A stretch of 64,000 bases of DNA, taken from contig JAKLKD010000005.1 of assembly GCA_023150845.1 (NCBI GenBank), positions 1 to 64,000 on the forward strand, written 5' to 3'. The first letter of the stretch is position 1. Each line of letters starts with the position of its first letter. The DNA is from Myxococcota bacterium (GTDB lineage Bacteria; Myxococcota_A; UBA796; CAJQPC01). The notes under the pieces were generated by a model, which saw nothing but the letters and a program-made list of their open reading frames with translations, did not search any database and was not told the origin of the DNA. Below are positions 3,261 through 15,938 of the stretch, piece by piece. The position numbers and the translations under genes were made by a program.

Positions 3261-4817
3261 ATGACTCGACCGCTCCTCTCGCTCGGCCTCGGCTTGGGCG
3301 CCCTCTCTCTCCTCGTCTCCTGCCGGCTGCTGTCGAAGGACGATGAATCCTCCAACAACGACCGCGCCGACGACACCTCCGTCGAGGACGACACTGAGGA
3401 CGTTGAGCCCGAGCGTGAATGTGATGAGACGACGGATCTCTGCGCCTCGGGCGACTGTCTCTATGACATTGACGTGCCCATCGCTGAGCTCGACCTCAAG
3501 GTGACTTTCGACGGCGGCAAGGTGCCCGGGGCGTCGAGCGGCGACGACGTGCTCGTGCTGTTCACCGAGACGACGACCGGCGACACCCAGAGCTACAGCT
3601 TCGACGGCGACGAGGACACGGTCTTTGTGCCGTATGGCACCTACGACATCGCGCTGCAGCTCGGCGCCTCGGATCCCCGCCCCAACTCCTTGACGACGGT
3701 GCGCCGTGACGTCGAGGTGAGCGGGGACGCGGGCCTCAACCTCGATATGCCCGTGGGGGAGATCAAGCTCAAGGTGACCTACGACGGCGGCAAGGTGCCT
3801 GGTGCGTCGAGCGGCTCGGACGTGCTCGTGCTGTTCACCGAGACCTCCACCGGTGAGACCCAGAGCTACAGCTTCGACGGCGACGAGGACACGGTCTTTG
3901 TGCCGTATGGCACCTACGACATCGCGCTGCAGCTCGGCGCCTCGGATCCCCGCCCCAACTCCTTGACGACGGTGCGCCGGGACGTCGAGGTGAGCGGCGA
4001 CGGTGGCCTCGACCTCAACCTGCCCGTGGGGGAGATTAAGCTCAATGTGACCTATGACGGCGGCAGCGTGCCGAGGTCGCTGAGCGGCGACGAAGTGCTC
4101 GTGCTGTTCACCGAGACGTCCACCCTCGAGACGCAGAGCTACAGCTTCGACGGTGGCGAAGAGACGGTCTACGTGCCCCATGGCACCTACGACATCGCCT
4201 TGAAGTTCGGCGCGTCGGACCCGAAGGCCAACTCTTTGGCCACGGTGCGGCGCGACGTCGAGGTGAGCGGCGACGGCGGCCTCGACCTCGACCTGCAGGT
4301 GGGGGATGTCTCGCTCGAGGTGACCTACGACGGCGGCGATGTGCCCCGCGTGCAGGGGTTCGACGACGTCTCCGTGCTGTTCACCGAGACCTCCACCGGC
4401 GAGACCCAGTCGGTGAGCTTTGAGGGCGGCATGGGCGATATCCACGTCCCGTTCGGCACCTACGACATCGCCCTGCAGTTCAGCGCCTTTGACCCCCGGG
4501 CGAACTCCTTGGCGACGGTGCGCCGGGGCGTCGAGGTGAAGAGCAGCGCGGGGCTCAACCTCGACCTGCAGGTCGAAGAGGTCACGGGCTTGGTGACCTA
4601 CGACGGCGGCAAGCTGCCCGGCGCGTCCAACACCGACGACCTCATCGTGCGGTTCGTTGAGATCACCACCGGGGAGGAGCAGTCTGTCTCGACGGACGGC
4701 GACGAGTACAAGATTGACCTGCCCTCGGGCATCTACGACGCGCAGATCCAGCTCGGGGCCACGGATCCGCGGCCGAACTCGCTCATCACCGTCGGGTTCT
4801 GCCTCGAGGTGCCCTAA
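3261..4817 (+). CDS. Lipoprotein with five tandem 91-residue repeats
   Basis: 518 residues. The start is supported by AAGGAAGG just upstream. The signal peptide ends in LLVSC, so the Cys is probably lipidated. An acidic linker follows, then a Cys-containing segment and five repeats beginning near residues 76, 167, 258, 349 and 440. Each runs from a VTYDGGKVP-like strand through VLFTETSTGETQS and VPYGTYDIALQ to a NSLTTVRRDVEV-like end, which reads as an all-beta fold. Repeats 1 and 2 share about 120 identical bases, so the array has expanded or been homogenised recently. The stop codon overlaps the convergent gene's stop by 3 nt. Family not recognised; carbohydrate or matrix binding is possible but unproven. 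Confidence 0.8.
   Translation: MTRPLLSLGLGLGALSLLVSCRLLSKDDESSNNDRADDTSVEDDTEDVEPERECDETTDLCASGDCLYDIDVPIAELDLKVTFDGGKVPGASSGDDVLVLFTETTTGDTQSYSFDGDEDTVFVPYGTYDIALQLGASDPRPNSLTTVRRDVEVSGDAGLNLDMPVGEIKLKVTYDGGKVPGASSGSDVLVLFTETSTGETQSYSFDGDEDTVFVPYGTYDIALQLGASDPRPNSLTTVRRDVEVSGDGGLDLNLPVGEIKLNVTYDGGSVPRSLSGDEVLVLFTETSTLETQSYSFDGGEETVYVPHGTYDIALKFGASDPKANSLATVRRDVEVSGDGGLDLDLQVGDVSLEVTYDGGDVPRVQGFDDVSVLFTETSTGETQSVSFEGGMGDIHVPFGTYDIALQFSAFDPRANSLATVRRGVEVKSSAGLNLDLQVEEVTGLVTYDGGKLPGASNTDDLIVRFVEITTGEEQSVSTDGDEYKIDLPSGIYDAQIQLGATDPRPNSLITVGFCLEVP
3585..3706 (+). repeat. About 120-bp direct repeat (copy 1) inside the repeat lipoprotein
   Basis: The sequence from ACCCAGAGC to GTGCGCCG recurs identically 273 nt downstream (3858-3979). 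The offset equals exactly one 91-codon protein repeat. Synonymous positions are identical too, which points to recent duplication or gene conversion rather than protein-level selection alone. Confidence 0.85.
3858..3979 (+). repeat. About 120-bp direct repeat (copy 2)
   Basis: Second copy of the identical block at 3585-3706. The corresponding parts of repeats 3-5 have diverged. Confidence 0.85.
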
Positions 4818-5074
4818 GCGCCGCGCGCCTCGTCACCCAAGAGCGCCTCCAGGCTCGGCGCGGTGAGGATCTCCTCGGACCAGCGCTCCAGGGCGGGGAG
4901 CTCCGCGTCCTGGAGCCTCACGCGCGCCCAGTCCGGCGGGGGGCCGAAGCGCAGGGTGATGAGGCGCTCGACGCTCCGCGCGAGCACCGCTCTGGAGCGG
5001 TCACGCTCCTCTTGTCGGCCTTGCTGTTTGCCGCCTTGCCAGCCCTCCTCGCGGAGTCGGTCAGCCCATGACAT
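4814..5074 (-). CDS. Candidate internal-start C-terminal product (RpnS-like) of Rpn copy 1
   Basis: Met246 of the Rpn gene (codon at 5074-5072) is preceded by GAGGAAGACCTG, placing GAGG 8 nt before the ATG. The product would be 86 residues and begin MSWADRLREEG. E. coli rpn genes make a similar short C-terminal protein that inhibits the full-length nuclease. The equivalent position in both other Rpn copies also has a Shine-Dalgarno and an ATG. Confidence 0.4.
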   Translation of the reverse strand: MSWADRLREEGWQGGKQQGRQEERDRSRAVLARSVERLITLRFGPPPDWARVRLQDAELPALERWSEEILTAPSLEALLGDEARGA

Positions 5075-5809
5075 CAGGTCTTCCTCAATTTTAGGGTTGA
5101 TCAGGCGCCGGATCTGGGCGCGCAGTCGTGGTGTCGGCGCGGGCTCGGTGACCTGGGTAATGTAGCGCAGAACCCCGCGGGTCGGGATGTCGCCCCGCCG
5201 ATCGTAGAGCGCGCGGTAGTCTTGCACGTGGTCCTCCAGGGTGTCCCAGAGGTTCTGCTCGTGGGCGTGGCGCATCAGGAGGAGCGCGAGGCGGCCGCCC
5301 CCGCGGCCTGGCACCTCGTCGTCCGCGGTCACGGTGAGGTCGATGAGGTTCAGCCGGAGCTCCGGCGTGAGCGTGCGCAACGCGGGCAAGGCCTCGGGCG
5401 GCGCGTCGAGGAGCTCCGAGAGGGATCTCGCCGTGGTCCAGGGCCGAGGCCCATGAAAGACGATGAAGGTGAGCACGACGGGGAGCCGCTGGGCGCTCCG
5501 GGCGGCGGACTCCCAGGCCTGGAGCGTGTACCGCAGCGCGCGCAGCGGCATCTGGGGATCGACGCTCGACTGGTGCTCCAGCACGAGGATGAGATCGAGG
5601 GCGCCGCCCGCGCGCCAGGGGATCACGAAGCGCAGGTCCGCGTGGCGTGCGCTCAGGTCCTCGGCGACGCCCTCCGTGGGGAGCTGCTTGGCCTCGTCCA
5701 GGCGCAAGCGGTCGGTGATCTCCACAGGGAGCAGATCCCGAACGAGCGCCGCGACCTCGGCGGGCTCGCTGAAGATGAGCTTGAAGAACGCGTCGTGAGG
5801 CTGAGCCAT
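4814..5809 (-). CDS. Rpn-family PD-(D/E)XK nuclease / putative transposase, copy 1
   Basis: 331 residues beginning MAQPHDAFFKLIFSEP, the usual Rpn opening. The core has ADLRF followed by ILVLEHQSS, the Asp...Glu-x-Gln pattern of the Rpn variant of the PD-(D/E)XK nuclease fold. The middle region is the helical part typical of the family, and the C-terminus has the charged LREEGWQGGKQQGRQEERDR segment. Homologues in E. coli are recombination-promoting DNA endonucleases with anti-phage activity. Paralogues sit at 29854-30804 and 45008-46012. Its TAG stop overlaps the end of the convergent repeat lipoprotein. An internal start at 5074 may make a separate short product. Confidence 0.85.
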   Translation of the reverse strand: MAQPHDAFFKLIFSEPAEVAALVRDLLPVEITDRLRLDEAKQLPTEGVAEDLSARHADLRFVIPWRAGGALDLILVLEHQSSVDPQMPLRALRYTLQAWESAARSAQRLPVVLTFIVFHGPRPWTTARSLSELLDAPPEALPALRTLTPELRLNLIDLTVTADDEVPGRGGGRLALLLMRHAHEQNLWDTLEDHVQDYRALYDRRGDIPTRGVLRYITQVTEPAPTPRLRAQIRRLINPKIEEDLMSWADRLREEGWQGGKQQGRQEERDRSRAVLARSVERLITLRFGPPPDWARVRLQDAELPALERWSEEILTAPSLEALLGDEARGA

Positions 5810-11994: not shown

Positions 11995-12171
11995 CTTGTC
12001 GCTCCCTCGTGTTGTGGGGTTGAGCGTCTTGTATCTCACAGATCCGCCGTCCGCTCAAGCCCGGCCTCGCGCGGGCGCGGCGCCACCCCGGCGAAGCCCG
12101 GGAGAAGATCCGCCGCCGGAGCGGATCAAGCTGGCTTGGGGTATGCTTGGGCGCTCTCCCCCGGAGGATCC

Positions 12172-14037
12172 ATGCTTCTCGTCGTGCTGGCGCTCTTCGC
12201 GTGCAAGAAGGAGGTCCCGGAGCCCAAGCCCGAGGACACCACGCCCCCGGCGATCTGCCACGAGGGCACCCGTTGGTCCGAGGGGCAGACCCTCTTTGCC
12301 GAGGCTACGGACGCCTGGGGCCTCACGGCGATCCAAGCGACGGGGGTGCGCCTCACCGCCGTTGACTTCGACGGCGACGGCTACACCGACCTCGCCGTGC
12401 GGAAGGGCGCGGGCGCGGACGACATCGCGGCGGGCACCCGCGACACCTGGCTCTTGCGGAACACCGGGCTCGGCACCTTCGAGGACGTCACCGAGGCCAG
12501 CGGCATCTTCGTGGGCCGCGACGGCAACCCCCTGCGGGGTCGCCCCGGCGTCACCTGGGCCTGGGCCGACGTAGACAACGACGGCGACCTCGACGTCTAC
12601 ACCGGGCTCAACGACGCCGAGAACACCCTGGAGGAGTACAGCGAGATCCGCCTCAACAACGGCGACGGCACCTTCAGCCTGGCCCCGGCCACGGCGATCT
12701 CGCTCACCAAAGACGAGCCCTACGGCGCCTCGTTCACCGACGTGAACCGCGACGGAAACGTCGACCTCTGGATCACCCAGTACAACGCCAAACAAGACCA
12801 CCTCTACCTCGGCGACGGCGCCGGGGGCTTTGAGGACGTCACCGGCACCGCCGGGCTCACCACGAAGGCCTGGCGCTCCGTCGCGGACATCAACAACGCC
12901 GAGGCCCACACTTACGCCTGGGCGGCCTTGGCCTGCGACCTCAACAACGACCTCTTCCCCGAGCTGCTGAGCCCCTCCTACGGCCGCGCCCCGAACCACC
13001 TCTGGCGCAACAACGGCGACGGCACCTTTCAGAACCGCTCCGTGGCGTCCAACTACGCCTACGACCACCGCACGGACTGGACCGACAACGAGTCCGCGCG
13101 CTGCTGGTGTACGCTCCACCCCGACGACGAGGACTGCGAGGGGGTGCCCGCGCCGCGCATCGTCTGTGAGGAGGACGCCGACGCCTTCCGCTGGGACCAC
13201 ACCTACGACCGCGAGCCCTTCCGTTTGGGCGGCAACAGCGGCGAGACGATGTGTGGGGACCTCAACAACGACGGCTGGATGGACCTCGTCACCACGGAGA
13301 TCGTGCACTGGGACGTGGGCAGCTCCTCCGACCCCAGCGAGGCCCTGTTCAACACCCAAGACCCCGACATCGTGTTTGAGCGCCCCGGGAACGACGTGAC
13401 CGGCCTCGTGCGGGAGCACACCGAGACGGCCTGGAACGACGGCGACATCACGGGCAGCCTCTTCGACATCGACAACGACGGCTGGCTCGACATCTACATT
13501 GGCGACTCCGACTACGCGGGCTCCCGGGGGCGCCTCTGGCACCAGACCTCCCCCGAACAGTTTGTCGCCGTGCCCGTCGATCAGGGCATCGACCACTGGC
13601 GTAGCCACGGCAGCGCCGCGGTGGACTTCGACCGCGACGGCGACCTCGACCTCGTCGTCGGCCACTCCAGCGCCCGCTGCGACGAGGAGTGCTACGACAC
13701 CTTCACCATCCGCCTCTTTGAGAACCTCACCGACTCCGCCGCGACGAACTACCTCCAGCTTGAGCTCGTCGGCGCCGAGGGCACGAACCGCGCCGCCGTA
13801 GGCGCCCGGGTCGAGGTGAAGACCGCCGAGGCCACCCAGACCCGCTATGTCGACGGCGGCCACGGCCAGTGGGGCAACCAAGAGGACCTCATCCAGCACG
13901 TCGGCCTCGGCGGCGCCTGTGAGGCCGAGGTCACCATCACCTGGCCCGACGCGGCGGGCACGGTCGAGAAGTACACCCTCGGCGGCGGCTACCGTTACCG
14001 TGTGGTCCAGGGTGAGGGCTGGACGGTGGTGGAGTAG
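12172..14037 (+). CDS. CRTAC/ASPIC-UnbV-type FG-GAP lipoprotein
   Basis: 621 residues. The ATG at 12172 follows CCGGAGGATC and gives a lipobox (LLVVLALFACKK). The body is a beta propeller of FG-GAP/VCBS repeats (DFDGDGYTDLAV, DVDNDGDLDVYTG, DVNRDGNVDLWI, DLNNDGWMDLV, DIDNDGWLDIYIG, DFDRDGDLDLVVG). The last ~100 residues match the ASPIC/UnbV domain (TNYLQLELVGAEGTNRAAVG, DLIQHVGLG, WPDAAGTVEKY). Such proteins are extracytoplasmic and calcium-binding. A CHEGTRW and several Cys-rich insertions are visible in the middle. It converges on the selenoprotein-like gene with 5 nt between stops. Confidence 0.9.
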   Translation: MLLVVLALFACKKEVPEPKPEDTTPPAICHEGTRWSEGQTLFAEATDAWGLTAIQATGVRLTAVDFDGDGYTDLAVRKGAGADDIAAGTRDTWLLRNTGLGTFEDVTEASGIFVGRDGNPLRGRPGVTWAWADVDNDGDLDVYTGLNDAENTLEEYSEIRLNNGDGTFSLAPATAISLTKDEPYGASFTDVNRDGNVDLWITQYNAKQDHLYLGDGAGGFEDVTGTAGLTTKAWRSVADINNAEAHTYAWAALACDLNNDLFPELLSPSYGRAPNHLWRNNGDGTFQNRSVASNYAYDHRTDWTDNESARCWCTLHPDDEDCEGVPAPRIVCEEDADAFRWDHTYDREPFRLGGNSGETMCGDLNNDGWMDLVTTEIVHWDVGSSSDPSEALFNTQDPDIVFERPGNDVTGLVREHTETAWNDGDITGSLFDIDNDGWLDIYIGDSDYAGSRGRLWHQTSPEQFVAVPVDQGIDHWRSHGSAAVDFDRDGDLDLVVGHSSARCDEECYDTFTIRLFENLTDSAATNYLQLELVGAEGTNRAAVGARVEVKTAEATQTRYVDGGHGQWGNQEDLIQHVGLGGACEAEVTITWPDAAGTVEKYTLGGGYRYRVVQGEGWTVVE

Positions 14038-14042
14038 GCGCC

Positions 14043-15938
14043 TCAGCGCGCCATCTTCGCCAGCTCGGCCTCGATCGCCGTGGTCAGCGCCTCGTGCTCT
14101 AGCTCGTTGTTGAAGAACACGATGGTGCCGTCCACGCCGACGAGCCACTGCTGGGGGTAAGCGGCGGTGGGGAAGGCGTTCACCATGGCGTACTGTTTGC
14201 GGGTGGCGCCGCCGGGGTCCATGAGGATGGGCAAGGTGAGGCCCAAGGCGTCACGGAAGGCCTCCAGGGTGGACTGGGGCTCGTCCGAGATCGCCCAGAC
14301 CTTGAGGCCCTGCGGGCCGTAGGTGGGGAGGACGCTGGCGTTGATGTCCGAGACCTCGGACGGACAGACCGGTCACCAGGTGGCGAAGTACGCCAAGAGC
14401 ACCGGGGCGCCGAGCTGCTCGGAGAGCCGGTGGGTGTCGCCGTCGAGGTCCGTGAGGGCGAAGTCCGGGGCGGCCTGGCCCAAGTAGTCGCCGACCACAC
14501 CCGCGGTGAGCTTGAGGCTGAGGGTGGGCTCGTCGGGGTCGTTGGAGGCGAGGCAGAGGGTCGTGTCTAAGCTCTCGCCGCCAGCCCAGGTGAGGCGGAG
14601 CAGCGCCTCTTCGCCGGGCTCAATCGACGCCGCGCTCACCTCGACGGTGACACGCTCATCTCCGACCGTCGCCCCGGAGAGGGTGAGGGGGGCGTCGCCC
14701 CGGTTGGTGAGGCGCACGGTGGCCTCGCCGCCCTCGGCGGGCAGGCGGGGGCTGTCGGTGCTGGGGTCGAGGGACGGCGCGGCGCCGTCGCGGTCGAGGA
14801 CCCAGCCGGAGAGGATGTTCCAGTCGCCGACCCAGGCGGCGTCTCCCGGCGCGGCGCGCACGGCCAAGGCGAACTGCTCGGTCTGCTCCCGGGCGAGGGG
14901 CTGGGGGTCGGCAGGGTCGCTGAGATCGTAGACGACGACGCCCTCGTGGTCGGCCACCCACAAGAGGCCGTCGGCGGCGCTCACCTGGGCGGCGCTGCCC
15001 CCGGTGGGCACGACCCGCAGGAGCGACGGGGCGGCGGGGTCAGCGAGGCTCAGCACGGCCACGCCCGCGCCGCCGATGGCCGCGTAGAGGTGGCCGTCCG
15101 CCACGGCGACGTGCTGGGTGGCGCCGGGCAGAGCCACGGCGGGGTGAATTACCGGGGCGTCGGGGTTCGAGAGGTCGATGGGCACCACGCCCAGAGCGTT
15201 GTCTGCGACGTAAGACCAGCCGGTCTGGACCGGGCTCAGCTCCCAAGGCGCGCTCAGGCCCGGCGTGGCGGCGCCCTCGACGGGGCGTGTGGGGTCGGAG
15301 AGGTCCACCGGCAGGAGCCCCCGGGCGCGGTCGGTGAGCCAGAGGCGGTCGCCGTCCCAGGCCATGCCCTCCAGGCCCGCGCGGCTGATCACGCCGAGGG
15401 TGGCCATGGCGGCGGGGTCGCTGACGTCGACGAGCTCCAGGCCCCGGTCGCGGTGGGTGACGGCGACGAGGCCGTCCCGAATGACCTCAACCCGGTGATA
15501 ACGCCCGTTCCCGGCGGGCGGGTGCGCGCCGATGAGCGCAGGCGCGGCGGGGTCGGCGATGTCGTAGACCATCAGCCCACCTTGGCCGACGCCATAAGCG
15601 CGCTCGCCGTGCAGCTCCAGGTCGATGAGCTCGACGAAGAAGCCTTGGCCGGGCTTGTCCTGGCCCCGCTTGTCTTGGCCGGTCTGGGTGAGGGTGTCCG
15701 TCGGCAGGCTCGCCGGGGCCTCACAGGACGTGGGCAAGGTGGACCAGACGAGGGGAGGCTCGCCGGTGTCGGCGGTGTCGTCGTCGTCCCCGGAGTCCGC
15801 GCCGCTGGCCGCGCTGTCATCGCCCGCCCACCGGGGGACACAGACCCCGTCCGCGCGTAGCAGCTCGTCCTCCGCGCAGGGGAAAGACCCGCTGCAAGCG
15901 GCGAAGACGGCGAGGGGAGTGAGGGCGAACACACGCAT
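14043..15938 (-). CDS. Probable selenoprotein: lipoprotein with LVIVD-type propeller and TlpA/AhpC-like thioredoxin domain (Sec at in-frame UGA)
   Basis: 631 residues if UGA at 14375-14373 is read as Sec522. The N-terminus is a lipoprotein signal (LAVFAACSG), then a Ser/Asp-rich linker and a beta propeller of LVIVD-like units (VYDIADPAAP, LVDVSDPAAM, PVDLSDPTRP, PIDLSNPDAP, VYDLSDPADP). A choice-of-anchor-like beta sandwich follows, and finally a redoxin domain. That domain runs GQAAPDFALTDLDG, LLAYFATW-U-PVCP, then PTAAYPQQWLVGVDGTIVFF with the cis-Pro region, all in one frame. The UGA takes the place of the first Cys of WCxxC while the second Cys is kept. The 109 codons after it are intact and complete the fold, and a SECIS-like hairpin follows the UGA. 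A plain stop would remove the active site. Predicted extracytoplasmic thiol/selenol oxidoreductase. Confidence 0.85.
14346..14361 (-). promoter_or_regulatory. Bacterial SECIS-like hairpin downstream of the in-frame UGA
   Basis: On the mRNA the stem GUCCG pairs perfectly with CGGAC around the six-base loop AGGUCU. The loop begins 16 nt after the UGA at 14373. From memory, the E. coli fdhF SECIS has the same AGGUCU loop 17 nt after its UGA, where SelB recognises the GU in the loop. The hairpin lies in the coding sequence, as in all bacterial SECIS elements. A slipped alternative pairing (UGUCCG with CGGACA) is also possible. Confidence 0.75.

Follow-up and report, generated by a model that had tools for sequence, protein, structure and literature searches.

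Does the UGA that interrupts the active-site motif of a TlpA-like lipoprotein gene from a Myxococcota bacterium encode selenocysteine (Sec)? The gene lies in the window, by which we mean the whole 64,000-nucleotide stretch of contig JAKLKD010000005.1 that was analyzed. The source genome, G000, comprises 7.13 Mb in 444 contigs and is estimated to be 95.7% complete.

A single frame interrupted by one UGA

An earlier note, made from the sequence alone, had described a lipoprotein signal, an LVIVD-type propeller and a redoxin domain in one frame, broken solely by a UGA and followed by 109 in-frame codons. Translation of the minus strand from 15938 to 14043 bears this out, giving 521 residues, the TGA, 109 codons and a TGA stop, with zero other stops. 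The internal TGA (14375-14373) occupies the first position of the TlpA/ResA-like CxxC motif (YFATW-U-PVC). Pfam matches to LVIVD and AhpC-TSA/Redoxin, together with an invariant lipobox Cys15, place all three parts in this frame. Standard ORF calling returned a 521-aa ORF and a 67-aa, TTG-started fragment at 14043-14246, exactly the truncated protein and fragment that the note had expected of ordinary annotation. The features of the locus are as follows.

14043..15938, minus strand: predicted selenoprotein coding sequence, 631 residues with Sec522; the final TGA at 14045-14043 is the true stop
15894..15938, minus strand: predicted signal peptide of a lipoprotein, MRVFALTPLAVFAAC, with an invariant lipobox Cys15
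14760..15700, minus strand: LVIVD beta-propeller, about residues 80-392 (Pfam, model strands E83-E392, WD40 PDB matches)
14490..14745, minus strand: Ig-like (ASH/DUF1573-like) beta domain, about residues 398-482 (weak Pfam DUF1573/ASH, model strands E404-E479)
14046..14482, minus strand: TlpA/ResA-like redoxin domain, residues 486-631 (Pfam, NCBIfam relatives, 4nmu ResA match)
14373..14375, minus strand: in-frame TGA, read as Sec522 in W-U-P-V-C, with the putative resolving Cys525 after it
14346..14361, minus strand: putative bacterial SECIS (bSECIS) hairpin GUCCGA-GGUC-UCGGAC, 4-nt loop from nt 18 after the UGA

The convergent neighbor is an FG-GAP/ASPIC gene (12136-14037, plus strand) and the divergent neighbor an M48 peptidase gene (from about 16020, plus strand); the selenoprotein gene therefore stands alone. 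A comparison of the neighborhoods of the window gene and its orthologs yielded no useful common gene. The window also encodes a Transposase_31 (YhgA-like) protein at 4814-5809 on the minus strand.

The UGA and the sequence beyond it are conserved

A homolog search of 58 related genomes gave hits to the propeller and redoxin parts, and the majority of the strong hits contained a single internal TGA. In 26 distinct close genes, the codon at the active-site position was TGA in 25 and TGC in 1, and the frames beyond the UGA were open for 104-144 codons; the placement of the UGA is therefore not a matter of chance. The earlier note had listed two ways in which its reading could fail at this point. 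One, a sequencing error at 14373-14375, is excluded by the recurrence of this UGA in genomes that were assembled independently. The other, relatives with a sense codon followed by decayed sequence, was not seen: relatives keep the UGA, the frame and the SECIS hairpin. A frameshift or pseudogene was also ruled out by the uniform frame and the retention of the UGA in independent genomes.

TGA also stands at this site in a more distant branch, whose members read FATF-U-PVC-SLEVPDI or variants of it and have different or degenerate N-termini. Cys was found in only two family members, L036 and L098; UGA in some relatives and Cys in others at this position is the pattern that the note had said would support Sec. 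In a maximum likelihood (ML) tree of the redox domains, all Sec rows fall in one well-supported part, and both Cys members lie inside it: L036 is nested beside the UGA member L193 (support 98/90), and L098 sits on a long branch. The Sec/Cys label needs three changes on this tree, which may correspond to a single gain of Sec and two reversions to Cys. L036 (G052:C3) shares 90% DNA identity with L193 around the site and still has the SECIS hairpin, as expected of a putative recent Sec-to-Cys change; L098 has TGT at the site and is without the hairpin sequence. L193 and L036 thus offer a natural Sec/Cys pair for asking why Sec is retained. At the stretch that reads PSAAYPEEW in its UGA sisters, L036 has altered residues.

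Conservation extends past the UGA, with a mean column identity of 56% over the 109 post-UGA codons in 18 homologs. Measured against G001, dN/dS was 0.077 over 85 codons upstream of the UGA and 0.287 over the 109 downstream, values that indicate purifying selection on both sides. We note that dS was lower after the UGA than before it (0.23 versus 0.60, window 14046-14372 versus L096), and that the hairpin can account for no more than part of this difference.

Adjacent selenoprotein genes occur on two contigs of relatives: G003:C915 (L099) has two close-family genes and one distant-family gene side by side, and G036:C161 (L109) has two distant-family genes.

A candidate SECIS hairpin follows the UGA

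Published constraints for bacterial SECIS elements are a loop of 3-9 nt, a stem of 4-16 bp, a distance of 16-37 nt from the UGA, G in the first two loop positions and an MFE <= -7.5 (PMC13188914). The hairpin here starts 11 nt downstream of the UGA and falls within these limits, with a 4-nt GGUC loop, a stem of 6 bp, a spacing of 17 nt and an energy of -9.1 kcal/mol. We rejected hairpin energy alone as proof of a SECIS element: taken by itself, the 56-nt segment has an unremarkable folding energy (z -0.20), and 175 of 5000 synonymous recodings folded the hairpin region as well.

The case for a SECIS element is nevertheless strong on comparative grounds, and it comes from conservation and not from energy. 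Pooling all 28 sequences in one covariation count was unsuitable, since the close and distant groups have stems in different registers (apex AGGUCU in the close group, AGGUU in the distant one; a slide of -1 scores higher on some measures over all 28), and a within-group codon count was used in its place. In the loop, the 4-fold degenerate Val codon reads GTC in 25 of 25 UGA genes, and the Glu codon is always GAG. The flanking Ser codons are TCC/TCG in 22 of these genes, TCG/TCC in two and TCT/TCA in one, and their third positions, which are free in the protein, pair in every case (C-G, G-C or U-A). In the same genes, a Val codon upstream of the UGA occurs with each of the four third bases.

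The apex is identical to the AGGUCU of the E. coli fdhF SECIS. The two elements differ in that the GGUC loop stands at nt 18 here and at nt 19 in fdhF, and in that the fdhF stem is longer and interrupted whereas the stem here is a plain 6 bp. With its E. coli-like apex, the hairpin may allow the gene to be expressed in E. coli.

Selenocysteine machinery and alternative readings of the UGA

The earlier note had named selA, selB, selD and tRNA-Sec as genes to look for, and the first three are present in G000: selA at 487 bits (cut-off 268), selB at 311 bits (cut-off 242) and selD at 374 bits (cut-off 125). In selD, too, an in-frame UGA interrupts the catalytic motif (CAG-U-ASK), and a hairpin with an AGGUU apex lies after it. 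The tRNA-Sec part of the expectation did not hold for the assembly: Rfam, a degenerate pattern and a covariance model built from relatives all gave no such gene in G000. The gene was also not found in G001, which belongs to the same genus and, like G000, has selA. Of the 23 other genomes searched, ARAGORN called tRNA-Sec (anticodon tca) in 18, one of which, G002, is from the same family. A contig end truncates the locus in 6 of the 18, so the gene may plausibly have dropped out of the G000 assembly as well.

We weighed two readings of the UGA that dispense with Sec. If it were a true stop, the product would be a 521-residue propeller lipoprotein and the downstream part a decaying remnant or pseudogene. 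Standard ORF calling and the missing tRNA-Sec agree with this reading, but we find it barely credible, given that the 109 post-UGA codons are open and conserved at the level described above (dN/dS 0.29), that UGA and not any other stop is fixed in 25 homologs, and that selA, selB and selD are present. Readthrough that inserts Trp, Cys or some residue other than Sec, whether through near-cognate or through altered decoding, would account for a full-length protein, as any readthrough would. It is highly improbable for this locus: TGA is an ordinary stop in the genome, including at the end of the selenoprotein gene itself, a SECIS hairpin with covariation lies downstream, and the genome has both Sec machinery and a UGA in selD. 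The conserved UGA, the hairpin and selA, selB and selD lend strong support to the note's central proposal, a second redoxin gene with W-U-PRC in G000 and in G001 also speaks for it, and we conclude that the UGA very probably specifies Sec in an exported redox lipoprotein.

Domain architecture and proposed function

The propeller matched Pfam LVIVD (PF08309) in six stretches (67.4 bits against a gathering score of 20.2; 6.6e-19), and an LVIVD match was present in 15 of 18 homologs. An AhpC-TSA/Redoxin match covers residues 487-607 (2.7e-24) and runs across the UGA; the PF00578 domain scored 85.9 bits against a gathering score of 26, with U-P-V-C as its UxxC motif. No NCBIfam model exceeded its cut-off for the protein. 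The ResA model NF002854 reached 59.2 bits, below its curated cut-off of 170, and the domain is thus described as ResA-like but not filed as ResA. An AlphaFold model (mean pLDDT 89.5, pTM 0.86) predicts, in order, a flexible N-terminus, a WD40-like propeller, an Ig-like domain and a ResA-like thioredoxin-fold domain. For the propeller, WD40-type propellers are the top PDB matches, with TM by target about 0.7; the redox domain matches the ResA structure 4nmu (TMt 0.85). Across the 18 homologs, the lipobox Cys15 column is invariant, as are C72 and C462 besides the active site; C72 and C462 may form a structural disulfide.

Our best reading is a lipid-anchored envelope thiol-disulfide oxidoreductase in which Sec522 would attack and Cys525 would resolve. 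SelB with Sec-tRNA would decode the UGA at 14375-14373 as Sec, guided by the hairpin downstream in the coding sequence, and the protein would be exported and lipid-anchored at Cys15. The propeller and Ig-like domain might then hold or position a partner, although the role of the propeller is a guess. The target of Sec522 would most likely be an envelope protein's disulfide (also a guess), and the resulting selenenylsulfide would be resolved by Cys525.

The fold makes thiol-disulfide oxidoreductase chemistry likely. A real selenoprotein whose redox domain is instead a peroxidase of the Prx/AhpC type would fit the best Pfam match, AhpC-TSA, and Prx-like selenoproteins do exist. We nevertheless consider a peroxidase unlikely, as the motif here is UxxC and not the TxxU of Prx, and the nearest solved and NCBIfam relatives are ResA/TlpA/DsbE.

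Relation to known selenoproteins and distribution

The earlier note had called this a probable new selenoprotein, which appears to hold for the architecture and not for the active site. Prx-like thiol:disulfide oxidoreductases of PF00578 with UxxC or UxxU motifs are a known kind of selenoprotein, e.g., WP_010940744.1 (PMC13188914). They have in common with the protein here the Pfam redox domain and a UxxC motif that begins with Sec; as they are listed there, neither an LVIVD propeller nor a lipoprotein architecture is mentioned (PMC13188914). ResA/TlpA/DsbE proteins (PDB 4nmu) share the thioredoxin fold, the APDF start and the WCxxC-type active site, but have Cys at the attacking position and are without a propeller, in contrast to the Sec and propeller here. 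The ResA-like WAxxUGC selenoprotein (NF041054) and the UGC-containing TlpA family also combine a TlpA-like fold with Sec; the match is weak (19 bits against a cut-off of 300), and they have a UGC motif and another architecture, where this protein has UPVC. We found no description of a lipoprotein-propeller fusion of this kind in the literature within our scope, which left out most subscription journals, and in that scope "selenoprotein" and "LVIVD" never occurred together in one paper. The apparent novelty lies in the joining of propeller, Ig-like domain and redoxin in one lipoprotein, and in the spread of this architecture through a Myxococcota lineage.

The C-terminal alignment was matched in 25 of 71 genomes of the class and in 32 of 379 genomes of the phylum, and selA was over its cut-off in 59 of the 71 class genomes. 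A named-genome scan gave 24 loci, with titles of Myxococcota, Myxococcales, Deltaproteobacteria, proteobacterium or uncultured bacterium MAGs. Because ordinary ORF calling cuts these genes at the catalytic site, a family of predicted exported selenoenzymes stays hidden in this poorly known lineage. We tentatively propose, as one quite possible history, a lineage-wide set of envelope selenoproteins: Sec would have arisen once in a Myxococcota TlpA-like domain. This domain would have become fused to various exported N-termini, the propeller among them, and would have given rise to paralogs serving an undescribed selenium-dependent envelope redox pathway, with only rare returns to Cys.

Other redoxins with an in-frame TGA were seen along the way. 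G000 has a second redoxin selenoprotein candidate with the motif GTFW-U-PRC (L195, G000:C317:57000-59500, at about 1120-1440 on the plus strand), and a GTFW-U-PRC redoxin with an in-frame TGA is also present in G001 (L196). A relative has a redoxin of a different subfamily, with FW-U-PGC and an in-frame TGA (L197, G014:C107).
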